Assembly: GCA_000482145.1 (NCBI GenBank)
Contig: AUXH01000143.1
Location: 1-34,932 of the forward strand
DNA length: 34,932 bases
DNA from: Strigomonas culicis
Taxonomy: Eukaryota; Euglenozoa; Kinetoplastea; Trypanosomatida; Trypanosomatidae
Direction of reading: 5' to 3'
Part shown: positions 9,101 to 31,559 of the stretch, piece by piece
Layout of the letters: every line of letters starts with the position of its first letter
How positions within the stretch are numbered: position 1 is the first letter of the stretch
Made by a program: the position numbers and the translations under genes
The notes under the pieces: generated by a model
Databases searched by the model: none
Told to the model about the DNA's origin: nothing
Seen by the model: only the letters and a program-made list of their open reading frames with translations

Positions 9101-12100
9101 CTGCAGCGCCTCGCGCAGCTGGATCTCGCCCTGCGCGCGGGCCTGCAGCTGCTTCAGCTCCGCCTGCTTCTCCAGCACCTTCTCGTAGCAGTCGAGGACG
9201 TTGCCGAAGGTGAGCGTCGCGCTCGTGATGTTCTTATCGATCCCGAGCAGCCGAAACATCTCGTTCCAGTGCTCCGTCATCCAGCCGTCGCCGCGGATGA
9301 ACTTGAGGAGCGGCAGCAGCTCGTTCCAGTCCTGCAGCAGCTTCAGCAGATAGTTCGGTATCACGTTCTCCTCCCCGTCCTTGTCGCGGCCCTTCATCTG
9401 CTCGTCCAGTGTCTTCTTCCAATCCTTGCAGAAGTCATCGAACTGGTACGTGTGCGAGCGGAACGTGAGCCAGTCCTCCTCGCGCAGCTTCTTCAGCTGC
9501 TCTTGGAACTGGTCGTACAGACACCACATGGTGGAGATGGCCTCCACATCCCGCACCGTCTTGTCCAGCATGGAGAAGTTCGGCTTGGGCTGGTTAAAGT
9601 ACTCGCACTTGGACTCCAGCTCCTTCCCTTGTGCCTTGAGTTCCTCCATATCGACCTTCTGCGACTTGAGACCACTGAGCAGCTTCTCGACCGAGCTCGT
9701 CTTCTTCTCTCTGAAGGCCTGCATGAGGCTGCCCTTCTGCTTCTCCCAGTTGGTGGAGAAGCGCTGCACATCCTTGAGGAACTTCTGGATGAGGCTGTCC
9801 AGCGAGACGCGCATCTTGGCCACGGCCGACTCGATCACCTTCGTGTGGGACGACATGGCCTCGCGCAGGTGCTCCCAGCGCGCGCGTGTCGCGCTGATGT
9901 CGATGGAGGCGCCGGAGTGGGTGCGGAGCTCGCGGTTCTGCTCCTCCAGCGCCTTGAACTTGGCCTCGAGCTCTGGCATGCGTGCCTGGCACTCCTTGTA
10001 CTGCATGTTCGCCTTGCCCACCTCGTCCATCGTCGTCGGCTGGCGCTCAATGACGTTGGAGGCGTTGAAGACAAAGATGTCGAGCTCATTCACCGCCTGC
10101 TGGATGATCTTGCGCATCGCGTTGAGGAGGGACTCCTCGAGGCGGTGCAGCTGCTCGTCCACCGTGACCTTCACGGGAACCGTGCTGATGGCAAAGCAAT
10201 CGACCCGCATCGTGTCCTCGATCTTCTCGAGCTTCTCCATGTGCTCCTTCACCGTCTCGAAGCCCTGGACGAACTGCTCCGGCTTCTGCGCCCACTGCTC
10301 CACAATGGTGTCGAGGTCCGGCATGCCGCTCACCCCGCAGAGGCCGATCACGATGTAGGAGCGGAAAGCCTTTCGCACTTTGGTGAGCTTGTTGAAGAGC
10401 TCGATCGCCTTGGCGTGCACGATGAGGATGCGCTGCGTGTTGTCGAGGGGCATCTGCGGATAGATCTCGTAGCTGCCGCCGGACTCCCGTTTCGGCTGCA
10501 GGCCGCGGAAGCGGTTCGGGACGCTCACAAACTCGCGCAGCTTGATGTAGTACGCCTCGCGGATGGCCTCAAACGAAGGCTTGAACTGCACCATGCCCTG
10601 CTTGAAGATGAGCTCCACCTTGAACTCCTCCATGTTCTCGTGCAGGCTCTCCAGGCCGCGACGGTACTGGTACTCCAGCGCCTTGTAGATCTGGCAGTCC
10701 AAGAAGCGCCGCCACTCGTCGTAGTCCACGTACTTGTGCTGGAAGATGAACTCCTCGAAGCTGCTCCGCATCGTGTCGACCGCGCTGCGCCAGTGGTCCA
10801 TGTGCTTCGTGAGGTCCATACTGTGGAGCGCGATGACCTGGTTGAGCATGTCGCCGTGGAAGCGCCGGATGTGGCGGTTCTCGCTGCTCAGCGTCTCGAC
10901 CGTGTTCTGGAAGCGCATGTTGAGCCCCTCCAGCTCCTGGTGGTTGACGAGCGAGATGACGCGCCGCGTCGTGTCCGCGTAGAGGATCTGCGCGAGGCTG
11001 CGCTCCATCGCCTTGGCCAGCATCGCGCGCGTGCACGGCAGGATCTGGCTCAGCACCGTGTTGAAGTTCGCGACCGCCTGCTGCGTGCGCACCGTCGCCG
11101 CGAAGAGCTGCTCGCACGCGCGGATGGTGTTCTCGGCGCTGTCGCTCACCTGCAGCAGCCGCGCCGCCGAGTTGGAGCCGGAGCGGCCGAGGCCACTCGC
11201 GCCGTCGCCGCCGTGCGCGGCCGCCTGGCTGCTCGACGGGATGTCCCCGACCCAGCAGCGGAAGTTGTGCGTGTCGTTGATAAACTGCTGGATCGTCTGG
11301 TTCAGCGAGCAGCGGAGCAGCGTCGGCTGCGCGCGGTTGTCGACCTGGATCACGACCGCCTCCTCCAGATCGACCATCTTCTTGCACTGCGCCTCCACCG
11401 TCTCGCGCCACTGCGCGACGGCGGCCTCGCACCGCTTCTCGCACTCGCTGATGATGACGTTCGACTTGCTCGACACCATCTCCGTGAGCTCGGCGCCGGG
11501 GCCGAGCAGGCGGTAGGCCACCTCCGGGATCGACGCGCATTCCGCCGCGCAGCTCTTCGCGGCGCGCAGGCGCTGCAGGTCGGTGGACGCGCGCTTCTCG
11601 TTATTCTCAAAGCGCGTCTTGGCCGCCTCCATCTGCTCGATGAGGTACACCGCGACGCCCCGCAGCTCCTTCTCCATCGCCTTCTGCGTGTCGCCGCGCT
11701 GCAGCAGCATGCTGAAGGGCATGAGGGCGCGCACCATGGACTCGGACGGCGACGCGTGGAACAGCTTCTTCTTGACGAGGGAGCGGAGGTTCGGGTCCAG
11801 GAAGGCGAACTCGCCGTCGAACTTCTCGACGCGCTTCGCCCACTCCGCGCGCGGCGTCGCGCGGGCGTCGATCATGCTTGCGTTGTCGAAGATGATCTCC
11901 GGCTGCAGCGTGTCCGGCACCGTCTCGCCGAGCAGCGTGACGCTGTTCAGCAGCTCCCGCACGCGCACGACATCGTGCAGCCGCTGCGTCAGCTCGTCCA
12001 GGCTCTCGTCGTGGAACATGCCGCCGTCCCAGTCCTTCCACTTGCGCTTCGTCAGCTGCAGGACCGTCTTGTTCCACCGCCGGCAGAGCTGCAGCGCGGC

Positions 12101-13078: not shown

Positions 13079-14100
13079 TGAATGGCAAGAGAGAGAAAGA
13101 AAAACAAAACACCAAAAAAAAAAAATGTAGAGAGAAAAGGGTACCGCACGAAACGTTGCAGTTCTCTTTCTTAGACACGCACACCTGACGACGTAGTAAA
13201 GCACAGTCGTAAAAGAGTATATAAAAGGAACTCTTATGTGGAAAAAGATTCCGTTCAACAACAAAAAACAAATTATCAATCAAAAATCGAATTGCTATCT
13301 ACAGAAATAACAGAACAGGGAATGAAAAAAAAAAGAGTAAAAAATGCTTATTCTATCCTGCGTAAAAAAAAAAAGAGTGAAATTGGGAGGAAGAAAGTAT
13401 CGTGTAGTAGCCTGGACCTTTTGAAAATTTACAAACAAGACATCTATCAGGTGGGCAAGAGGATCTCCTGAGCACGTGTATTTCCGCATACACAATCCCG
13501 TTATGAACATACAAGAGAAAGAAAAATATAACATTATTAGTAATATAATCAACATGCTTGTCCTTTCTGTCGAAAGAGCATGGGAAATCCCATATAGACG
13601 CAAAAAGAGACAAAAAATATATGAGCTCAACAACAGCAAAGAGTGTGCACATTCGTGGTAACCTGCCGTTACGCAACATACAGATTTAGGTACGTGTTCC
13701 GCGCACAGCACTCAAACACAGAACACACAAAGATAAACAAATAACAAAAAGAAAAAGAAAAACCAGTACACCATCTATGGGAACGCCGACAAACACACTC
13801 ACACACAAAAAAAAAGAAGTACAAAGATGTAATAATTGACAGGAAACGCGAAAAACAAACACAAGTAGGTACCGTCCATACAACGACTAATACATCTGGG
13901 GCTACCCATGTTATCCTTGCTCTTTCCGTTCAACGGGACAGATCGTAGGTGCAGAGGTTCTAAAATAAAAAATAGAGCTTTTGTTGATTTGTATAAGATT
14001 TCAGGCAATGGGTGTCACCAAAAACGAAGAAGAAAAGGTATACGCTCTTCCTACTACTACCACCTTCACCGTCAGTGCTTGTGCGTGTCAATCGGCGCCT
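13079..14100 (-). other. Spacer between TBCCD1 and the dynein-2 heavy chain, no gene seen
   Basis: About 1 kb of AT-rich sequence with many A runs on the plus strand, so it is U/C-rich in the minus-strand transcript. It should hold the TBCCD1 3' UTR and the dynein 5' UTR. The few open frames (up to 138 codons) are low-complexity Phe/Ser/Leu translations of pyrimidine tracts. No tRNA box B or other RNA signature was seen. The last AG before the dynein start in transcript sense is at 13164-13165. The 85 bases from there to the ATG are pyrimidine-rich and contain no AG. Confidence 0.75.
13083..13138 (-). promoter_or_regulatory. Pyrimidine-rich, AG-free leader upstream of dynein-2
   Basis: Read on the minus strand this is a T/C tract ending a few bases before the dynein ATG. 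Such tracts normally precede a trans-splice acceptor AG. Here no AG lies between the tract and the ATG, so the acceptor is probably at or above 13165 and the tract falls inside the 5' UTR. Confidence 0.5.
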
Positions 14101-15723
14101 CTACTTGCCGACGGCCGGCTGGTGCAGCAGTTCCAGCAGCCCGTTCGCCTGTCCATTCTTGTGCAGCCACTCCACAAACATGCTCTGCACCTGCGTGCGC
14201 AGGTTGTTGGCGAGGTCGGCGCGGCCCTCCTCCTCCAGCCGCGTGTAGGCCTCCTGCAGGTCGCGGGAGATGTCCTGGAAGCGCAGCATGCGGTTCTGTA
14301 AGGCGTCCGCGTAGGGCTGCGGCACGGTGCACGGATTCGCGCGCGTCATGATCATCGCGTTGCCCTGCGGCGCCACGGGGAAGCAGATGGGCGAGAAGTC
14401 GTCCGGCGGCAGCACGTACGCCGACGACGGCAGGCCGACGTTCCAGAAGTTCAGCTTGGGGTTGATGCCGGTGAGCAGCAGGTGCTCCTCCAGCGTCGAG
14501 TAATGCGAGTTGTACGGCGCGAGGAGGAGGTTCCGGTTGGGGGCGGCACCGGCCGGCCCGCCGTTGAGGACGACCGGGGGCGTGTTGGTGCAGACGAAGA
14601 TGCGGACGTTGCTACAGTTGCTCACGACGAGGCTGCCGCACAGCACGGAGATGGTGCAGTGCTCGCAGTGATCCACCGCGAGCACGCCGCTGACGGGGCC
14701 GAGCGCGACTGTGCAGTTGCGCAGGTTCGACAGCCGCGTGTGCGGCAGCGGCGACGCAACATAGAGGCTCGTCTGCGCGCAGTCCGCCACGGTGAAGTTG
14801 GACGACAGCAGCTGCATCATGAGGTCTAGGTTGAGGATGGGGGAGGTCGGGATGTACATGGTATCGCGCAGCCCGCGCACCACAATGTTGTTGGGAAAGC
14901 TCACGCCGTCCTTGTTGTCCTTCAGCGTCTTCTTCACCTCATCCGCGGTAAAGATGCGCGGCCGAATGAACTGCGCGAGCATCGCGATTTCGATCGTCTT
15001 CTCGTTGCGCGGCCACAGCACCGCGACGTTCGTTCCGAAGGGCTGCTCTGTCCCGTTCACGAACTCGCGCAGCAGGTGACGCAGCTCTAGCACGTCCACG
15101 TACGTCAGGCGGCCCTGCCGTGTGACCGACACCGCCGTCAGGTAGTCGTGCAGATACTGCCGAACGTGGCTCACGACCGCCTCCTGCGTAATCGCGCCGA
15201 GCACGCACCGCGGCGGCCGTTCCAGCAGCAGCTGCGCGAGCAGGAAGATGATGAGCCCGGGGAGACTCACCTGCCGGCTCGCGGAGACGAGTGGCCAGCG
15301 CGCCTCATCCACGCTGCCGCCCATCTTGTGCAGCAGGTTGCGGTTCGCCTCCTGTCGGAACTCCGCAATGCGCTTCTGCGCCGCGTCGGCGTTGCTGCTG
15401 TAGTAGGACGGGCTCGCCTGCATGCAGCCACCACTAAGCGCAAAGAAGACGTCGAAGACCGCGTAGGCAGTCTTCTCTGGCAGGCCTAGGATGCTCGCGG
15501 ACAGCTCACGCCAGTTCGCCAGGGAGATTGACGTGAGATTGCTCGACTCCTGCCGCAGCTTCATGATGGAGGCCGTCGTGAGGCCGCTCGGCGCGTCTAG
15601 CAACAGCCCACAGTTTTCGAAGAGAACAGGGTTCACGCAGAAAGAAACCGGGTTGTTGCTCGCACTCGCATCCGCCGCGGCCGGCGTTGAGCGTGCCGAG
15701 GGGCTCGTCGCAGCTCTGGACAT
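14101..15723 (-). CDS. TBCCD1: TBCC domain-containing protein 1 (TBCCD1)
   Basis: A 540-residue protein related to tubulin cofactor C. A helical N-terminal part (about 30-225) is followed by PFGTNVAVLWPRNEKTI (228-244), a stretch typical of TBCCD1. A Cys-rich beta-helix (about 300-385) has CAP/TBCC-like repeats such as NCTVALGPVSGVLAVDHCEH. Next comes LAPYNSHYSTLEEHLLLTGI (401-420), a recognisable family signature, and a C-terminal helix (about 455-525). In trypanosomes TBCCD1 is reported at the basal body, bilobe and anterior cell tip, where it helps keep flagellum, kinetoplast and Golgi connected. Human TBCCD1 is also centrosomal and is thought to lack the GAP arginine of TBCC. The start at 15723 is the first Met of the open frame; residues 1-25 are Ser/Ala-rich and probably disordered. 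Confidence 0.9.
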   Translation of the reverse strand: MSRAATSPSARSTPAAADASASNNPVSFCVNPVLFENCGLLLDAPSGLTTASIMKLRQESSNLTSISLANWRELSASILGLPEKTAYAVFDVFFALSGGCMQASPSYYSSNADAAQKRIAEFRQEANRNLLHKMGGSVDEARWPLVSASRQVSLPGLIIFLLAQLLLERPPRCVLGAITQEAVVSHVRQYLHDYLTAVSVTRQGRLTYVDVLELRHLLREFVNGTEQPFGTNVAVLWPRNEKTIEIAMLAQFIRPRIFTADEVKKTLKDNKDGVSFPNNIVVRGLRDTMYIPTSPILNLDLMMQLLSSNFTVADCAQTSLYVASPLPHTRLSNLRNCTVALGPVSGVLAVDHCEHCTISVLCGSLVVSNCSNVRIFVCTNTPPVVLNGGPAGAAPNRNLLLAPYNSHYSTLEEHLLLTGINPKLNFWNVGLPSSAYVLPPDDFSPICFPVAPQGNAMIMTRANPCTVPQPYADALQNRMLRFQDISRDLQEAYTRLEEEGRADLANNLRTQVQSMFVEWLHKNGQANGLLELLHQPAVGK

Positions 15724-18033: not shown

Positions 18034-21000
18034 TTATTTATTTCTATAACTAAAGTTAAACTGTGACCGCTGGATGTCCGTATCCGAGAGATCGTTGACA
18101 CCCCTATCATCCGTAAACCGTTGCCAGTCAAAGATATCCATCACGAAGGGCATTGTCCTCACCGTCGCCTTGTGCGCAGCGTCCTCGCCGTCTTCTGTAC
18201 CGGTCTTATACAAGGTGTACTGACAGTACCGATCCACAAACTCGAAGCGCGGGTGATCCACGGTGTAGCGGTTCGTCAGATTATAGTAAAAGGTGCGCTG
18301 GTTTTTCTTGTCGGGGACGCGCCGAAAGTTATGGTCGACGGGCTTCGGCAGCGCGCCCTCCAGCTTGGCAATCTCCGGCACATGAAGAAGCTTGTATTCG
18401 ACGTTGAAATCCTGGTGCTGACCCTCCGCGTAGGGCTCAAACGTGTCCACCTCAAGTCCGCCGCGCTCCTTCAGCTGCACCCACGGCCGCCGGACATAGA
18501 GCTCGAGACCGGTATCGCGGAACTTGCCAGGCTGGACGGGGTCCGTGTACTGCCCGTAGTGAGCGGACTCGCCAGGGTGGGTGACGAGGTAGCCGAGGAA
18601 GAGCGACGGCCCCGCATTCTCCCGCGCGATCTTGCCCAGGAACTTCGACTGCAGGATACCGTCCGCGGCGTGCTGCGTGTTCCCAAAGTGCCCCACATAG
18701 GTGTGGATGATCGCCCCGTACACGTCCAGCTCCGCGTGGATGAGGCACGCGAGCTCGCCGATGGGCGACGGCATGATGTACCGCTTTACGCTGCGGATAG
18801 GGTAGCGCGAGATCATGGCGCAGCCGTACGTGTCGTCGAGCGACGTGGGGCCGTAGTCCGTGTAGGCGTACCCAGTGTAGTAGGACACATACTCGACCAG
18901 GTCCTTCTGGTTGTTGACCAAGTGCATCGTGTCACTCTCCAGCAGCCCCACGACGCCCGGGTCGTAGCGGCGCACCATCTCCACGATGCGGTGGGAGGAG
19001 TCCACGTTGTAGTTGTCCAGCGCGAAGTGGACCGTCCAGATGAAGCCGGAGAAGTGCGAGAGCGCCTCCGCGGCACCGAAGACGTCTCTGCGCTGGTCCT
19101 GCGTGAGGTGCCGGAGCCCGTACTTGGCGTCCACGTACTGGCTCTCCTCCGTGTCCGTCACGTTCTTCCGCATCTCGTCGTATTGCTCCTCGTACTGCGC
19201 CTCCAGGAAGGCCTTGGCCGATTTCTCGATCTCCGGGTCCGTAACGCCGTTGCGGACGATGCGCAGGTCCAGCATCATGTGGTGCAGGTGCGCCACCTCC
19301 CGCGGGAACTCCACGGCCGTGTTCTTGCCCGCGGGGTAGGTGACGCCGTAGTAGCCGAGGCTCGTGCGGCCGATGAACACGGCCAGGAACGCGAGGGGGA
19401 GGATGCAGACGAGAAAGGTGTTCAGCGACCGCTGCCGCCGGGCGAGGGCGACGGCGTCGGCGGACAGCAGACCGCTGCCGGGGCGCTCCGTGGCCTCCTT
19501 GTGCGCCCCCCGCGCCGCGCGGCGGGCGATGTACAGGGTCAGCAGGTAGCACGTCAGCACATGCACGAGAAAGGTCCCGCGGGTCCGTTCCCGCATGATC
19601 CACCCAAAGGGGATGAACGGATACGTCGTGCACAGCACGTAGAGAAAGCAGAATAAGAGCGCCGAGGCATAGGTGCAGCACTCGAAGGAGCGCAGCAGGC
19701 CGCTCTCCCGCTTGTACAGCTGCGCGTCGGTCACCTCGGCCGTGTTGCTCAGCAGGTTCATGTTCTTCTCGACCGCGATGCTGCTCTTCAGCGTGTGCAG
19801 GTGGTGGAAGCGGCGCGCCGCCGTGTGCACGAGGGTCAGCTCCGTCACCACCGGCAGGAGGGCGCCAACAATGAAGACGACGACGAGGCCACCGGCAAAG
19901 GCAATGTGCTTGGAGCCATAGAACTCGGTCGTCCGCCAGTGTTCCAGGCTCAGGTCCTCCAACTTTGTGTCCTCCGTGACCGGGTACTTGTCGTGGCGCA
20001 CCTCGTAGCTGTGGTTCGTTTGCGAGGTGCCGTAGAGCAGCAGCAGCGCGCCCACGAGCAGCAGCACGCCGACGCGCAGCCACGAGCCGCGCAGGAAAGC
20101 GTGAAGCACGCGCTGCACACCACTGCGGCGGCGGTCGTTCCGGCTCGTGGCGAGCTGCGGGTACAGCGGCAGGACGTCCGTGGAATAGCAAATGCCACAG
20201 ACGAGAAAAAAGACGACGAGGAACGAGGCGGGGAACGGCTCGATCGCCAGCAGGCGAGGAATCAAATTCGCGGACACGAAGAAGTTCATCACCAAGGCGC
20301 ACGTGACGCCGAACAGCACGCCGAGCAGAGCGGGCGGCACGGCCGGATAGCTGAGCGCGAGCTGCCACATGGTGTTCGGCTCCCGGCTGTCGTCCAGCGC
20401 CGCGTCGGCGGCACGCGCCTGTCGCGCGGACGATGGGTTCTCTCCGTCCTCCCCCTTCTCGCCGCGAGGCACGTCGTCGCCGTGCACGTGGGGCTGGCGC
20501 TTGGGGCTCGCCGCACCTGCAGCCGCGTCTACCTGCACGTTGCCGAACATGGCGTGGCGGTAAATGGCGAAGGTGAAAATGAGGCCCAAGACAATGCCGA
20601 CGATCGCTGTGTAGAGCGGCTCCGTGTAGATGGGCGAGAGGCTCACGTAGAGGATGCGCAGCAGCATGCCGAGCACGAGGCCCATCGGCAGCGCGAAGAC
20701 AAGGCGGCGGTAGTCCTCCGTGCGGTCCTCGCCGTGCGCCGAGGCGGACGACGCCGGCGACGGGTACAGATAGCGCGCGAAGGTGGCCAGCGGCACGAAG
20801 AAGCCGCCGATGGACACCGCCAGCAGCTTCCCGCGCGGGTTCCCCGTGACGAGCACGTGGAGGTGGGACAGCGCCGCGCAGAGGTAGAGAAAGACGTACA
20901 TGGGCACGGTGCGGTGCGACGTGCCGGCCGGGTTGTGGGGCGGCTTGAACCACGTCTTGGCGAAGAAGCTGGGGCCCGTCAGCCTCTTGCGCAGCGCCGG

Positions 21001-22212
21001 CACGCGCAGCAAGATGGGCGACGTGAAGAAGACGACGGAGGACAGCTCCCACGAGATGGACATGGCGACGAGCGGCAGGTAGTACATGTGCGACACGAGG
21101 TGGATGATGCACTCGAAGAAGAGGTGGCCCCAGTAGATGTCGCACAGCCACATGGTCAGCTGCGACGGCGCGCAGCAGAAGCGGAAGCGGTGCAGGATGA
21201 CGTCCGGGCGGAGAAAGGGCTCGCCCGACGTCGCACCAGCCGGGCCCTCGGCCTCCGCGGTGCTGCCGATGCGGACGGCGCTCGACACACCACCCTCCTC
21301 CGCCTGCAGCAGGTCAGCTCCGCCCGCCGCTGCCGCCTCCGCCGGGCCGGCCGGCGCGTGCACCAGCGCCTCGCTCGTCTGTCCAGGCAGCAGCGGCGCG
21401 GCGGGAGACTTGAGGAGACTGGTGAACGACTCGGGCGACAGGCCCATCCACCAGCCGTCCAGCTTCATCTCGAACCAGCAGCTGCCGTCGTAGGCGATGT
21501 TGCAGGTCGCAAAGATCCACTCCCACATATTGGCGAGCGAGAAGCTGCCGTCGGCACAGGTTGCGAAGTGCCGCAGATAAAAGACCAGCACGCCCAAGGA
21601 CGCCACCGCCTCGCCGATCATACACACCCGCTTCAGCTTGTACGACACCTGCGCATCGCGGCGAGAGGTGTAGATGCTGAAGTTATAGCTGTTGCGTGAG
21701 ACCAGCGTCGTAATCAGCACCTGCATGATGAAGCACAGCAGCACGTACGGGCAGAAGCCGAGGTTGTGGTACGCCAGACTCTCGTTGGAGTTCACCATCG
21801 TCCACACGATGGCTGCAACCAACCGCCACGCGTCGACCCAGAGCATCAGGATGGTCAGGCCGGCCGAGCTGGTCAGCAGCTGCCGCGGTTGGTACACGAG
21901 CTGCTTCAGATCCGACATGCCCCCGCACCCTTTTTGCCAAAAGGTGTTGAAGAGGGTGATGGTGGAGCCGATGCGAAAGGCGGCGCAGAGCACAAAGGCC
22001 ACACGCCAGAGCTGCCGCTCCGGCTGGGTGTCGCCGATGGTTGTGCTAATCGACGGCCAGAACTCCCAGTGGTCCTCCCCGCAACCAGTGATGAGCAGCT
22101 CCTTTGGGTGCTGAACCAGCCCCACAAAGAGGGCGAACAGCAGGCCACATCCACTGATCAGCGCGTAGATGAGAGGGCAGTAGGCATAAGGAATATAGAA
22201 GACATGCTTCAT
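18034..22212 (-). CDS. CWH43: CWH43-like GPI-anchor lipid remodelling protein (PGAP2-like plus PGAP2IP-like)
   Basis: A 1,392-residue polytopic membrane protein. The N-terminal part has a first span at about 10-30, a lumenal CGEDHWEFWPSISTTIGD stretch with the PSIS-x-x-IG pattern of the FRAG1/PGAP2 family, and several further spans. A long multi-span central part follows. The C-terminal ~300 residues form an endonuclease/exonuclease/phosphatase-like fold: GLLESDTM (Glu1092), YGPTSLDDTYG, a YVGHFGNTQH motif and a late PVDHNFRR. Yeast Cwh43 has the same order and puts ceramide into GPI anchors in the ER/Golgi. By analogy this protein would remodel GPI lipids of surface proteins (inference). It is roughly 440 residues longer than the yeast protein. 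The extra length includes hydrophilic low-complexity insertions at about 265-345 and 560-625. The ATG at 22212 is chosen because the first span begins right after it. Confidence 0.85.
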   Translation of the reverse strand: MKHVFYIPYAYCPLIYALISGCGLLFALFVGLVQHPKELLITGCGEDHWEFWPSISTTIGDTQPERQLWRVAFVLCAAFRIGSTITLFNTFWQKGCGGMSDLKQLVYQPRQLLTSSAGLTILMLWVDAWRLVAAIVWTMVNSNESLAYHNLGFCPYVLLCFIMQVLITTLVSRNSYNFSIYTSRRDAQVSYKLKRVCMIGEAVASLGVLVFYLRHFATCADGSFSLANMWEWIFATCNIAYDGSCWFEMKLDGWWMGLSPESFTSLLKSPAAPLLPGQTSEALVHAPAGPAEAAAAGGADLLQAEEGGVSSAVRIGSTAEAEGPAGATSGEPFLRPDVILHRFRFCCAPSQLTMWLCDIYWGHLFFECIIHLVSHMYYLPLVAMSISWELSSVVFFTSPILLRVPALRKRLTGPSFFAKTWFKPPHNPAGTSHRTVPMYVFLYLCAALSHLHVLVTGNPRGKLLAVSIGGFFVPLATFARYLYPSPASSASAHGEDRTEDYRRLVFALPMGLVLGMLLRILYVSLSPIYTEPLYTAIVGIVLGLIFTFAIYRHAMFGNVQVDAAAGAASPKRQPHVHGDDVPRGEKGEDGENPSSARQARAADAALDDSREPNTMWQLALSYPAVPPALLGVLFGVTCALVMNFFVSANLIPRLLAIEPFPASFLVVFFLVCGICYSTDVLPLYPQLATSRNDRRRSGVQRVLHAFLRGSWLRVGVLLLVGALLLLYGTSQTNHSYEVRHDKYPVTEDTKLEDLSLEHWRTTEFYGSKHIAFAGGLVVVFIVGALLPVVTELTLVHTAARRFHHLHTLKSSIAVEKNMNLLSNTAEVTDAQLYKRESGLLRSFECCTYASALLFCFLYVLCTTYPFIPFGWIMRERTRGTFLVHVLTCYLLTLYIARRAARGAHKEATERPGSGLLSADAVALARRQRSLNTFLVCILPLAFLAVFIGRTSLGYYGVTYPAGKNTAVEFPREVAHLHHMMLDLRIVRNGVTDPEIEKSAKAFLEAQYEEQYDEMRKNVTDTEESQYVDAKYGLRHLTQDQRRDVFGAAEALSHFSGFIWTVHFALDNYNVDSSHRIVEMVRRYDPGVVGLLESDTMHLVNNQKDLVEYVSYYTGYAYTDYGPTSLDDTYGCAMISRYPIRSVKRYIMPSPIGELACLIHAELDVYGAIIHTYVGHFGNTQHAADGILQSKFLGKIARENAGPSLFLGYLVTHPGESAHYGQYTDPVQPGKFRDTGLELYVRRPWVQLKERGGLEVDTFEPYAEGQHQDFNVEYKLLHVPEIAKLEGALPKPVDHNFRRVPDKKNQRTFYYNLTNRYTVDHPRFEFVDRYCQYTLYKTGTEDGEDAAHKATVRTMPFVMDIFDWQRFTDDRGVNDLSDTDIQRSQFNFSYRNK

Positions 22213-23373: not shown

Positions 23374-24987
23374 CTACCCGCGATAAGCTGGGAAAATCAC
23401 CTCCATGAGGAGGCTGACGCCAAAGCCGGTGGAAACGTTGCCACTCATGGCAGGGGAGGCGATATCCACGTGCACCCAGTGCCCCGCGAACCCGTCGCAC
23501 AGATGGTTTCCGATAAACTGCCCGGCGCAGCTCACCTGCGCGTTGTTGCGGTTCGTCACGCTGTTGCGGTAGTCCGCGGAGTTACTGGCGAACTCCGCGT
23601 TGTGCAGCTCCGGGCAATAGAGGACAGGAAAGCAGAGGTCGCCGGAGACCCTGCCGGCGCGGCGGAAGCGCTCCTCTCCGTCCTCCGTACTGCAGTAGAT
23701 CGCCGCGTGCAGGCGGCCTGTCGCGATGCCCTGCGCGCCGGTCAGCGTCGCCATGTCCACGACGAGGTGGGGCGTGAAGGGCAGCTCGGCGGTCGCGTGG
23801 TAGACCCCGTCGCCGAGCACCAGCCGGCCCTCCGCGTCCGTGTTGTTGATCTCAATCGTCTTGCCGGACTTCATGAGAATGATGTCGTCGTTGCGCTGGG
23901 CGAGCGGGCCCACCGCGTTGTCCGCGAGGCACAGCACACACGCGATCTGCGCCGGCGCGTCCACCTCCACGAGCGCCGTGAAGCCGCAGAAGACGGCGGC
24001 CGCCCCGCCCATGTCGTCTTTCATGCCGCACATGTTGGGCCCGCTCTTGATGGAGAGGCCGCCCGTGTCGTACACGATGCCTTTGCCGACGAGGGCAATC
24101 TTCTCCTGCGGCGCGATGCCGTTCGCGGGCTCGTACGTGAGCGTGACCAGGTGCGGCGGGTACTGCGCCGCCTTACCCGTGCCCCAGAGCCCGCCGTAGC
24201 CGCGCTCCCGCAGCTCGTCACCCTTGATGACCTCAATTCGCACCGTGTCCTTGCCCTTGATGTGCATCTCCGCGACCCAGTTCTCCGCAATCGCGGCGAA
24301 CGTGACCGTGTCGACGAGGTTCGTCGGCGCATCCACCAGACGGCCGCAGCGCTGGATGCCGGTGCTGACCGCCTTGAAGGCGCGGACGGCGCCCTCGTCG
24401 TAGTTACAGCTGCCGTCCGGCCGCTGCAGCGCCACGTGGATGCGCGGCACCTCCGCCTGGTACGCGTTCAGCGCCGCCTTCCGCTTCGCCGTGAAGCGCG
24501 AGACGGACCGCGACACGGCGGACACCACCGCCAAGTCGTGCGTCGCCTCGCCAAAGAAGACGACGTAGAGCGTCTTCTTGGTGGCGGTGGCGGCGACCGC
24601 GTGCTTGACCGCCTTCGTCAGCAGATCCGGTCGCGACGGGCAGTTGTGGCGCGACGCCACGTCCTTCACCACCTTCGCGATGATCTTCCGCGTCGGCGTC
24701 ACCTGTTCGTAGTCGCTCTTGCCCTCCAGGCTCGCGCGCAGGAGGGGGTGCGCGTTGAAAAAGGCGGCGAGCGCGGCGCTCGTCTCGGCCGCCTTTGGCC
24801 ACACGTCGCCGAGTGTGAGGAACAGCACAACGTCCTTCTCCGCCTCCCACGGCGCCTGGGCGTCGTCCACCACGAGCGGCACGGACGCGAGGTCGACGAC
24901 GTCCACGTTACTGGTGAAGTTCTTGTGGCTATCGATGTAGGACTGCACATTGCTCTCCTCCGCCGCAATCTTGGAGTGCTCCGGCAT
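23374..24987 (-). CDS. M17 family aminopeptidase, NPEPL1 type
   Basis: A 537-residue zinc/manganese leucyl-type aminopeptidase that removes N-terminal residues from peptides, probably in the cytosol because no targeting signal is seen. The catalytic domain has GKGIVYDTGGLSIK (Lys302, Asp307, Lys314), MKDDMGG (Asp325) and the family signature NTDAEGRLV (Asp384, Glu386, Arg388). These cover the usual metal ligands and both catalytic residues. The stretches LADNAVGP, DMATLTGAQGIATG, YCPELH and TGFGVSLL match the NPEPL1 branch better than classical LAP3. Residues 1-200 form the variable N-terminal domain. The start is the ATG at 24987 (MPEHSKIAAE). The open frame continues 99 codons upstream, but that part is Phe/Ser/Leu low complexity from a pyrimidine tract. 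In transcript sense no AG lies between 24988 and 25053, so the 5' UTR is at least 66 bases. Confidence 0.93.
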   Translation of the reverse strand: MPEHSKIAAEESNVQSYIDSHKNFTSNVDVVDLASVPLVVDDAQAPWEAEKDVVLFLTLGDVWPKAAETSAALAAFFNAHPLLRASLEGKSDYEQVTPTRKIIAKVVKDVASRHNCPSRPDLLTKAVKHAVAATATKKTLYVVFFGEATHDLAVVSAVSRSVSRFTAKRKAALNAYQAEVPRIHVALQRPDGSCNYDEGAVRAFKAVSTGIQRCGRLVDAPTNLVDTVTFAAIAENWVAEMHIKGKDTVRIEVIKGDELRERGYGGLWGTGKAAQYPPHLVTLTYEPANGIAPQEKIALVGKGIVYDTGGLSIKSGPNMCGMKDDMGGAAAVFCGFTALVEVDAPAQIACVLCLADNAVGPLAQRNDDIILMKSGKTIEINNTDAEGRLVLGDGVYHATAELPFTPHLVVDMATLTGAQGIATGRLHAAIYCSTEDGEERFRRAGRVSGDLCFPVLYCPELHNAEFASNSADYRNSVTNRNNAQVSCAGQFIGNHLCDGFAGHWVHVDIASPAMSGNVSTGFGVSLLMEVIFPAYRG

Positions 24988-25352
24988 CGGCGCGTGTAGA
25001 AAAGTGAGTGAGAGATGAAAAAAAAAAAACGATAAACAATCAGTATATGCAAACTGGGTACTGTATGTTTCTTCGGAAAAAACGTGAATACTAAAAGAAA
25101 AGAAAAGAAAGAGGGTTTGAGTAGAGAAAAGAGGGAGCAACCGAGGAGTTGAAAATAATAGTAATAAAAAATGGACGACAGAGCTGCACAGCACAACAAA
25201 AAGACAACAACTCGAACCCATGAAACAAAAGAAAGAGAAGTCAATGATAATACGAATAAACAAACAAATGAACCCCATGATCATTCAACGAAGAGTGCAA
25301 GAAAGCTTGGGGTGACATACACTGCAGAAACTGAATCATGCGACACCTAGCG
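24988..25352 (-). other. Spacer between kinesin and aminopeptidase genes
   Basis: 365 AT-rich bases carrying the kinesin 3' UTR and the aminopeptidase 5' UTR. In transcript sense a T11 run and a C/T-rich stretch (24995-25030) lie between the last AG (25055-25054) and the ATG. More pyrimidine-rich sequence (about 25075-25140) lies upstream. No gene seen. Confidence 0.7.
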
Positions 25353-28300
25353 TTATAGTGCCAGGTGTGCCAAAACATCGAGCAGCTTATCGAGGGCATC
25401 GCTGCTGCTGTCGGCACCGTCGTCGTCCACGGTGGACAAGGAGGAACCGGCAGCAAAGCTCTTGTTGAAGCACTCAATCGCCAGCGTACAGCCCGCCTGC
25501 TGCATCTCACTCAGCCGCTGGACGCTTCCCTTCGTGATGGTGCGCAGAAAAACGTCGGCGTCGATCGGCGGTGTGTCGCTCGTCCGCGTGCGCACGAAAG
25601 GGATGCCGGCGGCGGCGTCGGCCGCCTCCTCCTCCCCCGTATCGAGCTGGTCTGTCGCGACCGAGGAGCCCGGCCAGCTCTCGGCGTCGCCCATCTCGTT
25701 GTCCGGGGTGAGTGGCGTCTGCGGCCCCCCGCTGCGGCCCAGCTGTCTGGAGCGCGCCGTCTGCAGCGCGAACGTGTCCCGCTCGCGGATCTTCTGCAGC
25801 GTGTTGAGGTTCTCGTCGATGGCGCGATAGAAGACGTGCTCGCGCTGCTCGTCGCTGGTCGTGATGTCGATCTCCTCGTCCCTCTCGTCCACCGCCGCGG
25901 GGCCGCCGTCGCCGTGCTTGGCGGCGAAGAGGCGGGCCTCCGTTGTCTGCCACACAACGTCGTACCCCGCGGCGCAGAAGAGGCTCTCCTCGCACTCCAC
26001 GCCGGGGTTCTCTTCCACCACCTGGCGCACCGTCGCGACGACGGCGTCGTAAAAGCCGTCCATCTCGTCGTCCGTGCGGTCCTCGGCGTAGTCGGGCCGC
26101 GCGCTGTCCGGCCGCTGCGGGTGGGCGTGGAAGGACACAAAGAGCGTGTGGCCGATCATGCGCACGAAGGCGCGGCAGCTGCCGTGCCCCACCACCCACA
26201 CCGTGTGCTGCCACAGCGTCGCGCACGACGTGGCTGTGGGGACCACCCCCGCCAGCGACGGCGCCGCGCTCGCCGCCGCGGCCGCCGTCGGCGAGCCGGT
26301 GGACAGCGAGCGACGGCCGCCGCCGCCCCGCGCACCCTCCGCCCCGGCGTCGTTGCTGAAGCTGGAGAGGGGGATGGCCGGGCTCTCCGCCAGCACGGGC
26401 TGCGCATGCAGCGGGCCCACGTAGACGCCGCGCACGAGCTCCACGTCCGCCGCGAGGCGCGCGACCAGCTTGCTGAAGAAGCACAGCGGCGCGATGCGCA
26501 GGCGAAAGCGATAAAAGGGACCGGAGAGAAACTTGGAGAAGTGCAGCACGACGCAGCTCGGCGGCCGTTGCTGGAAGTTGGACGGCAGCAGCAGAAAGGT
26601 TTCCCATGCCGACGTGGGCTGTGCGCCGCGGAACGGCGCGAGCGGCGCACTTGGCCTGCATTCCAGCGGCGGCCTCTCCGTCCGCTCCGCCGTCGTCGCG
26701 GTTGTGGCGGATGGCTGTGGCGGCCGGTTCGCGTCCAGCGCCGGGGAGATGATGCGGCCGCGCACGGTGACCACTGGCGTGGTCGCGTGAGACGTCGCCG
26801 TTGAGGAGGACGCATTGAGGCTGTCGGCCGGCACCACAAGCCCTTTGTGGCGCATCGGCGTCGGCCCTCCGCCATTCGCCGTCGCATTCAGTGTAAATGG
26901 GTTGGGGTTCGCGCGAAAGCTGCTGAAGCGCACACGGCTGCCGCGTATCACCCAATCGCACATCTCCAGGAACTCCACGACGCCGAGGAGGTCCGGCAGC
27001 TGCGCAAAGCTGGACGTCTTGCGCCGCGCGGCCACCGCCGCGGCACGGCCGCCCACGGCCTCCTGCCGCGTGAGCGACGTGAGCAGCACCGAGAGCACAC
27101 TGAAGGACAGCGCGCCCTGCGGCAGCAGATGGTACTTATCCGCCACGGCCACGTGCGCGGCGTCGAAGGGGAGAGAAGCGGCAGCCGCTCGAACTTCCCC
27201 TTTCCGCTGGGACGGCCGCGACGCGTACGACGTGAGCGCCTCCGGCGTAGCCAAGAGCACGACGCGCTGCCGGTGCTGCGCCCCGCCGGCCAGCACCGCC
27301 CTGGCGCCCGAGGCGGACGGCACGGGGATGGGCGGGATCGCGGCGGCGGCGCTGTCCGGCGCCGCCCCCTGCACCGTCACAAAGCCGCACGCGGCGAGCA
27401 CGCTCCACAGCTGGTACAGCCACGCGGTGTCCAGTATGACGTACTTCTTCAGCCGCGCATGGCGGAAGGCGTGGTGCAGCACGCCGAAGCTCTGCAGCAG
27501 CTGCGTCTGCGCATGCAGGTCACTGCGCGCCGCCTTGTAGTGCGGGTGGACGGACTTGGCGAGCTGGCGGTAGTCTGCCGCCGGCAGGCACCACTTGTGC
27601 GTCTGCCGGATCTGCTGCAGCACGTCCTCCAGGTGCGTGAAGCAGCGCGCTGGCACGAGCCCGTTGGAGAAGTCGACGTCGCGGCGGCAGCACTGGTGCG
27701 CGTGGTCACTGAGCCACCACAGCAACTCCCGCCAGCTCTTCACGTTCGCGAAGTCGAACGAGTAGACGTCCTGGCCGATGGGCGCGGGCGCCTTCGTGTG
27801 CTTCTCGAACGGCGACCACGGCTGCGGCTTCGGCCGCGGCGCGGCCGCGCCGGCGTGAACGCTGTCGACCGCAAAGCGGCCGACGATGACGGGTCGCATC
27901 GCCGCGTTTGGCTGCAGCAGCTGCAGGTACGTCTCGACCTCCCGCTCCACCACGCGCATCGCGTCCTGCATCTCCTGCCGCCCGGCGGCCTGCCGCGCGC
28001 CGGGCGACCGCTGGGCCGCCTCGTCGCGGTAGTACCGCAGGAACAGGTCCGCCTGTGTCGCCACGAGAAGAATGGAGACGTCGCGGTTGTCGGTGCGACC
28101 GAGGATCAGCTCGAGCGTCGTCTTGAAGAGCTGGAGCGACGGCGCCGCGGGCTGCACAGCGGCGGGGCTCGCCGAGTCGTCGTCGCCACCGGGAGCCCCG
28201 CGCGCGCCGCGCGTGACGAGGGAGAAGGTGAGGATGTACGTTACGCGGCGAGAGGGAACTACGTCTAGCAGGGGCAGAAAGCACGGCGCGCCGCCGAGGT

Positions 28301-31300
28301 CGAAGAACACGAGCTGCATGCCATTGTCCTCACTGCTGTCGCCCGCGATGCCCTTGCGCACCGTAATCCTGGAGCTCTGCAGACCAAACGTCGGGAGCAC
28401 GCCTGGCGCGCCCGGCTTGCTCATCGCATCGTCTTTTCGTTCCTCTGAACGGAAGAGATTGCTGAAAAAGCCCTGCAACGTATCTTTTTCTGACACGTCC
28501 TCGTGCTTCTGCTTCGCACCACCCGAGAGAAGCGATTCGTTCACACGCCGCAGGTTTTCCTTGAAGGAGGTCTTCCCCGCGCCCGACTCGCCAAGGAGCA
28601 CAAAGCTGTGGCGATTCAGCAGACGTTTCTCTTCATTGAAAGTCGCAAAAGGCTCCCCCTCCGGTGCATCGGTAATTGGGTTCGCGTCGGAGAGCCGATT
28701 CTCCTGTCGAACGCTGGGCTTATTGGGGGACGCCGACGGCACGGCACCAACCACGGGCAGCGCGGTGGCGCCGCCGCTGGTGCCGCGAGAGGCGAAGGGC
28801 GAGAAGTCCAAACGGGGGAGGACCGCCGCGACGGCCGGCGGCGCCTCGCCCGCCTCCGCCCCGACCGCCGCGTCACCCTCCTCGGCGGCGGCCGTTGCGG
28901 CGGCGCGGCGGCGGTCGACCAGTTCGCGGCCCTCCGCCACGGCCCCCGCGGCCGGTCCCTCCGCGCCGAGCCGCGCGGGGGAGGCGTCGGCCGAGAAGAG
29001 AGACGCGCCGCGCACGGCCGCCGCGCGCTCCCCGTCGCCGCGCAGCATGACCGCCGCGACGCTGTCCGACCACGTGCTCGGCCCGCGCGAGCCGTCCCGC
29101 TCCACCGTCGCGTCGAACACGATGGCCGACCGCGGCTCGACCGGCGGCGCCCGCACCACCGGGGACGGGGCCCCGCGCGAGACGCTGCGCGCCCCGCGCG
29201 CCGTCGCGGGCGGCTCCGCCGGGTCGATGAAGCGGAACTGCGGTCCGTCGACGTAGCCGAGCGAGAGCACGTCGCCGCTGCGCAGCATCGTCTCCTTCCC
29301 CAGGAGCGGGATGGGGCTGTAGTTGAGGAACGTGGAGCAGCCGAGGGACGGACACGCCCGCACGGCGGACCTCACCGCGTCGCGGCGGAAGAGCACGTGC
29401 CCCTCGCCAATCGCCTCCGCGTCCTCGCGGGGGATGTAGAGGTACTGCGTCTCCTCCTCCTTCGGCTCCGCGGGGGGCGCCGCGTGCGGCCCGGCCGCGG
29501 GGGTGACCCCCAGCGAGGTCCAGGGCTTGCTGAAGTGGGCCGCGACCCAGTTGCCGACGCCGTCCACGTTCAGCAGGTACGGGTCGCTGCCCGCGAGGTG
29601 CATCGTGGTGCCGCGCTGCGCGGCCTCCTCCTCCTTATCCTTGAGGCTCTGCAGCACGGCCGCGGTCTCCGCCTCCCGCTCCGCCTCCGTCGCCGTCATC
29701 TGCCGTATGACGTCCTCCGCGCGCGCGAGCTCCTTCTGCAGCGCGCTCACGTCCACACGGGGGACGACGTCGCGGTCCAGCCTCGCCAGGGCCGTTGCGG
29801 GACTCGCCGGTGTATTGTCATACAGCTGCGCCTCGTCGACATTGCTGTCCACGTCGTCGGCGTCGTCGTCGACCGCCGCGCTGGGCGACTTGGTGCGGCG
29901 CTTCCTCGTGGACACGCGCGGCGTCTCGTCGCCCGCCTCACTTGCCGCGTCGCCCAGGTCGCTGAACGAGTCCGTGCTCACGCCGTCCGCGTCGTGCGCG
30001 GCCTCCCCCCGCGGCGTCCCCAGCGCCTCCGGCGACGCGGACGGCTGCGTCTGGAGCAGTCGGATCGTCTCGCGCAGTCGACTCACCTCATTCTCCAGCT
30101 CGCGGATGCGGCGGTCGCCGGCGCTCTCGTTCACAAAGGCGCGCGTCACGATGGACTTGGCGCGGTCGGCGAAGCGCAGCGTGCTGAGCGTCTCCTCGTA
30201 GTGCGCGGTGGAGGGGCTGATGTTGCTGAGCATGACCGTCTTGCTGCTCCCGCCGAGCGACTCCTTCAGGAGAAAGGTGAGGGTCGAGTCGCGGTACGGG
30301 ACGTGCTTCACGCGCGCCGTCTGCTGTGAGTTGTCCGCCAGCACACTGATGACGAGCCCGAGCGTCGTGAGGGAGAGGTTGATGAGGGCCCCCTCCTTCA
30401 GGACCTCGCCCTCCGCCCCCGTCGACTGGACTCGCTCGCTGCCGGCGAGGTCCACCAGGTTCATCTTGGAGCGCAGCTCGCTCACCGTCTCGCCGCCGTC
30501 CTGCGTCGTGCCCTTGCGGCGCTGCACGACCGTGATGGTGAAGATCGCGTGGCTGCGACTCGACGTGTCGTTCATCCGCGTCGAGGCGGTGTGGCGGTTC
30601 AGCGTGCCGATCGACATGAGCTTCAGCATCTGCTCTTTCCGCTCCACCGGGACCTCCTTCAGCCCCTCCACGTAGACGCCGAGGGTCGGGTGCTGCCGGA
30701 TGCGGAGGGTGTGCAGCGCGGCCTCCGCGGCGCTCTCCGGCTGGGCCCCGCTCCCGCGCTTCGGTCGCGTCTTGCGTGGCGTCGGCAGCGTGGACCTCGT
30801 GCCGCCCAGCAGGCAGCGGACGCGCTCGCGGTAGATTTCCAAATAGCTGACGTAGACGCAGAACTCCACCTCGGAGGGCAGCGTGACCGCGTCCGCCGCA
30901 GCCGCGGCCTCCACCTCCACGGCGACCCCCGCCTCGGCGCGCTGCACCGCGTTCTCCTGCTGCTTCGCCTGCATCTCCGCAAAGAGCGCGTCGCAGAGCC
31001 GCGGGATGAGCCCCGGGGCCAGGTCCATCCCGGCACCGCCCTCCGGCCCCATCATGGAGTAGCTCTTGCCGCTGCCGGTCTGCCCGTAGGCAAAGATGCA
31101 TGTGTTGAAGCCCTTCATGCTGTTCGCGAGAACGCCGAGGCCAATGTCGCGGAAGAGCTCTTCTTGTGTGCTCTCCGTGGGGTAGATGTGGTCGAAGGCG
31201 AAGCGGTGGCAGCTGTGCATGGGCAGCCCCTTCAGGTACAGGTCCTGGGCCTCCACCGACCACTCCTTGAACGAGATGGGGACGCCGCTCTCGAGGATAA

Positions 31301-31559
31301 CAAGGTTCTTTCCGTCCGGACTGATGAGGAGGGTCTCGGCGCTCCTCTTCACCGCCTCGCGCCTATCCCCCGGTGAGGACCGCACACACGCCCCTTGCTG
31401 CACCTCCGCGGTCCACGCCAGCTCGCGTGGATTCGGCGGCCGCGCGCGGACGCACACAATGACGTGTGCGTCCTCGAACTGTGGGGGCGTGGCGCCCCGA
31501 GGAGACGACGCGCCGGCGTCGCCGGTGTTTCCCGTCTCGGCAGCAACCGTAGACGCCAT
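25353..31559 (-). CDS. Kinesin-3-like motor fused to FHA and Roc-COR (Roco-type GTPase) domains
   Basis: A 2,068-residue protein with one continuous frame. The motor (about 30-475) has GQTGSGKSYSMMG (159-171), switch I NDTSSRSHAIF (330-340), switch II LVDLAGSERV (368-377) and YEETLSTLRFADRAKSI (454-470), closest by eye to kinesin-3. The usual INKSL is INLSL (393-397). A neck helix (482-503) and an acidic linker follow. Residues about 658-782 resemble the kinesin-3 FHA module, ending LRSGDVLSLG...FRFIDP. After 200 low-complexity residues comes a GTPase-like region (about 983-1290): P-loop GESGAGKTS (990-998), FDLGG (1086-1090), ATQAD (1167-1171) in place of NKxD, and RFAVDSV. Next is a COR-like region (about 1295-1860), including LLQSFGVLHH, KKYVILDTAWLYQLW, a LLLPSNF motif and PLCFFSKLVARL. 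It would be a microtubule motor with a built-in GTPase module. The motor call is near certain, FHA likely, Roc-COR probable. Confidence 0.92.
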   Translation of the reverse strand: MASTVAAETGNTGDAGASSPRGATPPQFEDAHVIVCVRARPPNPRELAWTAEVQQGACVRSSPGDRREAVKRSAETLLISPDGKNLVILESGVPISFKEWSVEAQDLYLKGLPMHSCHRFAFDHIYPTESTQEELFRDIGLGVLANSMKGFNTCIFAYGQTGSGKSYSMMGPEGGAGMDLAPGLIPRLCDALFAEMQAKQQENAVQRAEAGVAVEVEAAAAADAVTLPSEVEFCVYVSYLEIYRERVRCLLGGTRSTLPTPRKTRPKRGSGAQPESAAEAALHTLRIRQHPTLGVYVEGLKEVPVERKEQMLKLMSIGTLNRHTASTRMNDTSSRSHAIFTITVVQRRKGTTQDGGETVSELRSKMNLVDLAGSERVQSTGAEGEVLKEGALINLSLTTLGLVISVLADNSQQTARVKHVPYRDSTLTFLLKESLGGSSKTVMLSNISPSTAHYEETLSTLRFADRAKSIVTRAFVNESAGDRRIRELENEVSRLRETIRLLQTQPSASPEALGTPRGEAAHDADGVSTDSFSDLGDAASEAGDETPRVSTRKRRTKSPSAAVDDDADDVDSNVDEAQLYDNTPASPATALARLDRDVVPRVDVSALQKELARAEDVIRQMTATEAEREAETAAVLQSLKDKEEEAAQRGTTMHLAGSDPYLLNVDGVGNWVAAHFSKPWTSLGVTPAAGPHAAPPAEPKEEETQYLYIPREDAEAIGEGHVLFRRDAVRSAVRACPSLGCSTFLNYSPIPLLGKETMLRSGDVLSLGYVDGPQFRFIDPAEPPATARGARSVSRGAPSPVVRAPPVEPRSAIVFDATVERDGSRGPSTWSDSVAAVMLRGDGERAAAVRGASLFSADASPARLGAEGPAAGAVAEGRELVDRRRAAATAAAEEGDAAVGAEAGEAPPAVAAVLPRLDFSPFASRGTSGGATALPVVGAVPSASPNKPSVRQENRLSDANPITDAPEGEPFATFNEEKRLLNRHSFVLLGESGAGKTSFKENLRRVNESLLSGGAKQKHEDVSEKDTLQGFFSNLFRSEERKDDAMSKPGAPGVLPTFGLQSSRITVRKGIAGDSSEDNGMQLVFFDLGGAPCFLPLLDVVPSRRVTYILTFSLVTRGARGAPGGDDDSASPAAVQPAAPSLQLFKTTLELILGRTDNRDVSILLVATQADLFLRYYRDEAAQRSPGARQAAGRQEMQDAMRVVEREVETYLQLLQPNAAMRPVIVGRFAVDSVHAGAAAPRPKPQPWSPFEKHTKAPAPIGQDVYSFDFANVKSWRELLWWLSDHAHQCCRRDVDFSNGLVPARCFTHLEDVLQQIRQTHKWCLPAADYRQLAKSVHPHYKAARSDLHAQTQLLQSFGVLHHAFRHARLKKYVILDTAWLYQLWSVLAACGFVTVQGAAPDSAAAAIPPIPVPSASGARAVLAGGAQHRQRVVLLATPEALTSYASRPSQRKGEVRAAAASLPFDAAHVAVADKYHLLPQGALSFSVLSVLLTSLTRQEAVGGRAAAVAARRKTSSFAQLPDLLGVVEFLEMCDWVIRGSRVRFSSFRANPNPFTLNATANGGGPTPMRHKGLVVPADSLNASSSTATSHATTPVVTVRGRIISPALDANRPPQPSATTATTAERTERPPLECRPSAPLAPFRGAQPTSAWETFLLLPSNFQQRPPSCVVLHFSKFLSGPFYRFRLRIAPLCFFSKLVARLAADVELVRGVYVGPLHAQPVLAESPAIPLSSFSNDAGAEGARGGGGRRSLSTGSPTAAAAASAAPSLAGVVPTATSCATLWQHTVWVVGHGSCRAFVRMIGHTLFVSFHAHPQRPDSARPDYAEDRTDDEMDGFYDAVVATVRQVVEENPGVECEESLFCAAGYDVVWQTTEARLFAAKHGDGGPAAVDERDEEIDITTSDEQREHVFYRAIDENLNTLQKIRERDTFALQTARSRQLGRSGGPQTPLTPDNEMGDAESWPGSSVATDQLDTGEEEAADAAAGIPFVRTRTSDTPPIDADVFLRTITKGSVQRLSEMQQAGCTLAIECFNKSFAAGSSLSTVDDDGADSSSDALDKLLDVLAHLAL
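26100..27722 (-). other. COR-like domain region of the kinesin (residues ~1280-1820)
   Basis: By eye, RELLWWLSDHA, ARCFTHLEDVLQQI, LLQSFGVLHHAF and YVILDTAWLYQLWSVL match the COR-A pattern of a leucine-rich helix, a loss-of-depth loop and an ILDPxWL-type strand. LLGVVEFLEMCDWVIRG, FLLLPSNF and RIAPLCFFSKLVARL match the later 'mE-fdl', 'yLiPslL' and 'fP-glfsrLi' steps. LWQHTVWVV and AFVRMIGHTLFVSFHAH would close COR-B. Low-complexity insertions (about 1397-1425, 1550-1650, 1730-1775) separate the blocks. Confidence 0.65.
27690..28613 (-). other. Roc-like GTPase region of the kinesin (residues ~983-1290)
   Basis: Residues HSFVLLGESGAGKTSFKENL start a P-loop fold with a full GxxxxGKT/S. MQLVFFDLGG supplies a DxxG-type switch. 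YILTFSLV and SILLVATQADLFLR give the following strands, with ATQAD at the base-recognition loop. VIVGRFAVDSV and the helix at WRELLWWL fit the end of a Roc domain. The region between P-loop and switch II is longer than usual and polar. Confidence 0.7.
29214..29586 (-). other. FHA-like module of the kinesin (residues ~658-782)
   Basis: The block begins SDPYLLNVDGVGNW, comparable to the 'NPHLVNLNEDP' entry of kinesin-3 FHA domains. It continues with YLYIPREDAEAIGEGHVLF and ends LLGKETMLRSGDVLSLG then FRFIDP, comparable to the LRSGNRIIMG...FRF end of KIF1-type FHA domains. The canonical phospho-binding SxxH is not clear. Confidence 0.7.

Follow-up and report, generated by a model that had tools for sequence, protein, structure and literature searches.

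A kinesin-3-like motor joined to a predicted LRRK2-type Roc-COR module in Strigomonas culicis and other trypanosomatids

Kinesin-3 proteins such as KIF1A/Unc104, KIF13B, and KLP-6 are ordered motor, neck, coil, and FHA domain, and the kinase-bearing Roco proteins LRRK2 and LRRK1 share the order Roc, COR-A, COR-B. The coil, MBS, and MATH regions that lie behind the FHA domain of KLP-6 are described as wrapping the motor, trapping ADP, and blocking FHA-led dimerization (available text of PMC9314371), and a bacterial Roco protein is reported to be predominantly dimeric when bound to GDP and monomeric when bound to GTP (available text of PMC5714945). A gene on Strigomonas culicis contig AUXH01000143.1 (the stretch analyzed, 34,932 nucleotides [nt] in all, is called the window) encodes a protein, P0001, that follows the kinesin-3 order through the FHA domain and has Roc-COR behind it. 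An earlier note, made from the DNA letters without database searches, had read the gene as such a fusion. Judged by sequence profile and predicted fold, this identity (a kinesin-3 motor, an FHA domain, and a Roc-COR module of the LRRK2, or Roco, kind in one polypeptide) is almost certainly correct.

Comparison with described kinesin-3 and Roco proteins

The motor and FHA domain of the window protein find their best sequence matches in kinesin-3, from which the protein differs behind the FHA domain: among the Pfam families listed (25 of 31) for the 14 members of this family (the window protein plus 13 relatives), there is neither a PH domain nor any other tail domain known from kinesin-3. The closest solved folds to its Roc-COR are LRRK2 and LRRK1, and the closest solved sequence is LRRK2; relative to these, the window protein has a motor in front, and 13 of the 14 members have Glu in the G3 motif. 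Chlorobium tepidum Roco and Methanosarcina barkeri Roco2 differ in that the Strigomonas protein carries kinesin and FHA domains ahead, with no leucine-rich repeats matched. The Pfam matches of the window protein at E ≤ 10 include no leucine-rich repeats, kinase, or WD40 repeats, such that the Roco-group features of leucine-rich repeats before Roc or a kinase behind COR were not found in it. Roco proteins are divided into three groups by domain layout (PMC6337361), and the kinesin-Roc-COR layout is not among the groups described in the available text of that review, where "kinesin," "trypanosom," and "Leishmania" have zero occurrences.

The earlier note knew of no description of such a fusion, and none was found among the papers listed from the open-licence literature, as represented mostly by titles and the openings of abstracts. 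Neither Roc nor a GTPase appears in the main text of a 2010 kinesin survey covering 105 architectures (PMC2867816, in the portion available), and the available portions of PMC13304329 and PMC3008729 hold nothing on a kinesin-Roc-COR fusion. Because the sequences are already public and both families are known, the fusion is a combination of two known families and not a new kind. Public Trypanosoma and Leishmania entries called "Unc104-like kinesin" (the title of six of the nine named relatives) are related to the Strigomonas protein over its full length, although their names cover the motor only.

Domain composition and evidence for Roc-COR

The gene is a single uninterrupted frame, as the earlier note had seen, with an ATG start and zero internal stops (Table 1). 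Pfam Kinesin matches its product at an E value of 3.7e-98, and the motor is complete, with P-loop, switch I, and switch II. Among the best 60 of 158 rows, the closest PDB motor sequences are KIF13B, KIF1A, and KIF14, and the motor of the Phytomonas ortholog best matches KIF1A/KIF13B, which supports a kinesin-3-like motor, nearer to KIF1/KIF13/KIF14 than to other kinesin classes insofar as best PDB matches indicate class. The nucleotide motifs occur in all 13 of the 14 members that have a motor (GQSGSGKS replaces GQTGSGKS in one), and because P-loop and switch motifs are kept, the motor is likely an active ATPase. Behind it, Pfam Kinesin_assoc is matched at E ≤ 1 in 10 of the 14 members (best, 0.0018), the window protein giving 1.7.

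The proposed FHA-like block was borne out by a family profile built from nine regions (those of the window protein and eight of the 13 relatives), which matches the FHA domain of KIF1A at 1.7e-9, followed by those of KIF1B, KIF1C, and KIF13B, with Afadin next (3.5e-5). Beyond the FHA domain, identity to relatives is 11 to 20% over residues 800 to 975, versus 32 to 43% in Roc.

The second P-loop (GESGAGKTS) reported in the earlier note lies in the frame, as do a DLGG at residues 1087 to 1090, an ATQAD at 1167 to 1171, and three COR-like motifs starting at 1371, 1655, and 1688. A profile of the family's Roc-COR region best matches LRRK2, and Foldseek and VIA comparisons of two predicted models (window protein and ortholog) agree in placing LRRK2 first, the structural alignment extending through COR-B as far as LRRK2 residue 1815 for the window model and 1832 for the ortholog model. 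Profile and predicted fold thus both match Roc-COR, and the P-loop is of the Roc/Ras-like family. With the poor window model, non-Roco GTPases (eEF2 and others) score within Z 1 of LRRK2; the better ortholog model separates them.

Of the Pfam profiles sought in the window protein itself, Kinesin was found, COR-A was weak (E, 0.0038), and Roc and FHA were matched in relatives only. Across the family, FHA is matched at E ≤ 1 in 10 of the 14 members, COR-A at the same threshold in nine (best, 4.5e-6), with COR directly following Roc, Roc in four (best, 2.2e-4), and COR-B in one (E, 0.044); a precomputed domain table gives COR-A for two of 12 proteins (P0011 and P0012). Searched against the whole genome, Pfam COR-A yields zero matches at E ≤ 0.001; as even the kinesin-FHA-Roc-COR gene is missed, single-sequence Pfam searching is too blunt here. 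Pfam Roc has 38 matches in the genome, none of which falls on the window's contig, and NCBIfam models returned no useful match for eight Roc-COR regions. Across the 17.7 Mb genome, which contains 53 kinesin-matching stretches, the Roc-COR part has no second match at E ≤ 1.

Possible roles of the Roc-COR module

The G1 motif GxxxxGK[ST] is present in all 14 members and the G4 motif T-x-x-D in 13, five of which read GTHLD, the letters of LRRK2 in the profile alignment; in the Leishmania mexicana protein (P0014), the motif reads ATHAH and the G4 Asp is lost. At G3, the window protein has DLGG and the other 13 members have E-L-[SG]-G, with Glu in place of Asp. Because G1 and T-x-x-D are so widely retained, the motifs make nucleotide binding by Roc likely.

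On the explanation that we favor, the nucleotide held by Roc would toggle the motor, which would be either folded and inhibited or dimeric and active. The motor, with its P-loop and switch motifs retained, would be active, and Roc, retaining its P-loop and T-x-x-D base-recognition motif, would sense nucleotide. As in KLP-6, the parts behind the FHA domain may fold onto the motor and block FHA-led dimerization: after a linker, the predicted Roc-COR sits behind the FHA domain, where KLP-6 has CC2, MBS, and MATH. Exchange between GTP and GDP would then alter Roc-COR pairing, freeing or locking the motor; which nucleotide state is "on" cannot be read from sequence. We assign a probability of roughly 0.57 to the explanation as a whole (kinesin-3, FHA, and Roc-COR, with Roc nucleotide switching the motor between inhibited form and active dimer), and regard the switching step, taken alone, as evenly balanced. 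More tentatively, an ancient fusion may have put a Roc-COR dimerization module in the place of the kinesin-3 tail, whereby GTP, and not just cargo, would decide when the motor pairs and walks.

The main rival to a switch, itself rather unlikely in our estimate, is a scaffold: Roc-COR would serve chiefly as a cargo or adaptor platform, holding its nucleotide near-statically while binding a membrane, a small GTPase, or a flagellar partner, the role played by the PH domain or MBS in other kinesin-3 proteins. The listed Pfam families include no lipid-binding tail domain, and another part of the protein may therefore bind cargo; the Glu at G3 in 13 of the 14 members and the lost G4 Asp in L. mexicana also fit a weak enzyme and count for a platform. 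Yet a pure scaffold would need neither the G1 motif kept by every member nor the T-x-x-D kept by all but one, and platform and nucleotide switch are compatible, not mutually exclusive.

That Roc is instead a second microtubule-binding site, tethering the motor as LRRK2 Roc does on microtubules, seems improbable. LRRK2 Roc is reported to bind microtubules directly, with basic patches at residues 1356 to 1359 and 1383 to 1386 important for binding, but LRRK1, in which the patches are not conserved, is described as lacking such binding (available text of PMC9758056). The window protein has Asn and Glu at the positions of LRRK2 K1358 and K1359, and, in the same alignment register, LRRK2 1383 to 1386 align with uncharged positions of the family consensus. 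Because these patches are not kept, a tethering role is disfavored, and we set it aside.

LRRK2 has been linked to microtubules and transport in ways that are still disputed; with a module predicted to share the LRRK2 Roc-COR fold built covalently into a kinesin, the effect of such a module on a motor could be measured in one purified protein. The module would also provide a likely tail function for Trypanosoma and Leishmania kinesins that have so far been named by their motors alone. If the nucleotide switch is real, trypanosomatids own a motor with a built-in LRRK-type GTPase switch.

Relatives, gene structure, and neighborhood

The fusion is no chance reading: protein searches recovered 13 relatives that align along Roc-COR, 12 of which combine it with the motor in a single chain. 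The thirteenth, from Trypanosoma congolense (P0008), is an 881-amino-acid (aa) record without motor letters. Named members come from Trypanosoma conorhini, T. rangeli, T. cruzi, T. theileri, T. grayi, T. congolense, T. vivax, Phytomonas, and L. mexicana, to which four further proteins are added. A Strigomonas culicis fragment was found separately, as the sole match of the Roc-COR profile against the protein database, a search that reached only proteins of ~530 to 1,690 aa and scored only the 7,992 candidates with the most words in common; the other two protein searches scored 7,983 and 7,986 candidates in like manner. T. brucei is not among the matches (2, 12, and 1 hits), which, in candidate-limited searches, is no proof of absence.

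Trees of the motor and of Roc-COR were built separately, with no outgroup, from 13 members (the motor-less P0008 being excluded). They show zero conflict at starred forks, their sole difference being the poorly supported placement of T. theileri and T. grayi. The branch leading to the window protein is long in both trees, and its placement next to the Leishmania pair, seen in the motor tree, is uncertain (the program issued a warning). The simplest reading is a single fusion that predates the radiation of these genera.

The public S. culicis protein STCU_06478 (P0015; 971 aa) is identical to the window protein at 907 of 912 aligned residues, diverges from it in its final residues, and starts at Met 1046, hence without the motor. 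This start might suggest that two genes have been joined by an assembly or annotation artefact, as might a dip in GC content to 0.56 at 28353 to 28652, close to the Roc P-loop. We nevertheless consider such an artefact highly improbable and set it aside: motor and Roc-COR share one protein in 12 relatives (from Trypanosoma, Leishmania, Phytomonas, and others), the contigs given for the public record reach at most 3,824 bases, too short for the whole gene, and the frame contains no pyrimidine run of at least 18 nt on its coding strand and so shows no conventional trans-splice signal within it. There are 12 such runs on that strand of the window, two of which lie inside the frames 101-13279 and 23374-25284, close to their 5′ ends, and the rest are intergenic; the longest (90 nt) is upstream of the kinesin-FHA-Roc-COR gene.

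Table 1. Features of the kinesin-FHA-Roc-COR gene and its upstream region (all on the minus strand)
Feature	Residues	Window positions	Basis
Whole coding frame (P0001), 2,068 codons		25353..31559	Open reading frame translation
Kinesin motor domain	29-478	30126..31475	Pfam Kinesin, 3.7e-98
Motor P-loop GQTGSGKS	159-166		Motif
Motor switch I NDTSSRSH	330-337		Motif
Motor switch II DLAGSE	370-375		Motif
Neck helix/short coil (boundaries approximate)	479-505	30045..30125	Aligned GDxxIRELExEVxxLRE conserved; coil inferred from sequence
Second likely coil (approximate)	605-650	29610..29747	Alignment; inferred
FHA domain, kinesin-3 type	~652-785	29205..29606	Pfam FHA in relatives; profile match to KIF1A FHA
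Low-complexity linker	786-975	28635..29204	Weak identity to relatives
Roc GTPase domain	~982-1300	27660..28616	Family profile stretch 8-142 to LRRK2 Roc; predicted folds
Roc G1 P-loop GESGAGKTS	990-998	28566..28592	GxxxxGK[ST] in 14/14 members
COR-A	~1300-1480	27120..27662	Pfam COR-A E 0.0038 at 1307-1383, below cut-off significance
Low-complexity insert within COR	1549-1652	26604..26915	Predicted local distance difference test mostly <50; 59% A/G/P/S/T
COR-B	~1653-1862	25974..26603	Structural alignment to LRRK2; Pfam COR-B in 1/14 members
C-terminal tail, net charge -20	1863-2068	25356..25973	Residues 1900-2068 are 21-35% identical to relatives
Likely trans-splicing signal, a 90-nt pyrimidine tract ahead of the start codon		31973..32062	Role inferred from trypanosomatid gene structure

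The GC dip falls exactly at the Roc P-loop, in a surrounding frame of ~0.70. Neighbors with clear domains all lie on the same strand: a peroxiredoxin gene upstream, then, beyond the kinesin-FHA-Roc-COR gene, genes for an M17 aminopeptidase, a Frag1/PGAP2IP protein, a TBCC-domain protein, and a dynein heavy chain. The dynein heavy chain frame (101-13279, minus strand) encodes 4,392 aa, with matches that include a cytoplasmic dynein-2 AAA model (7.4e-10), and the TBCC-domain protein (14101-15723, minus strand; 2e-25) likewise belongs to a tubulin-linked family. A 1,392-aa frame at 18034-22212 (minus strand) combines a Frag1 domain with a PGAP2IP C-terminal nuclease-like domain.
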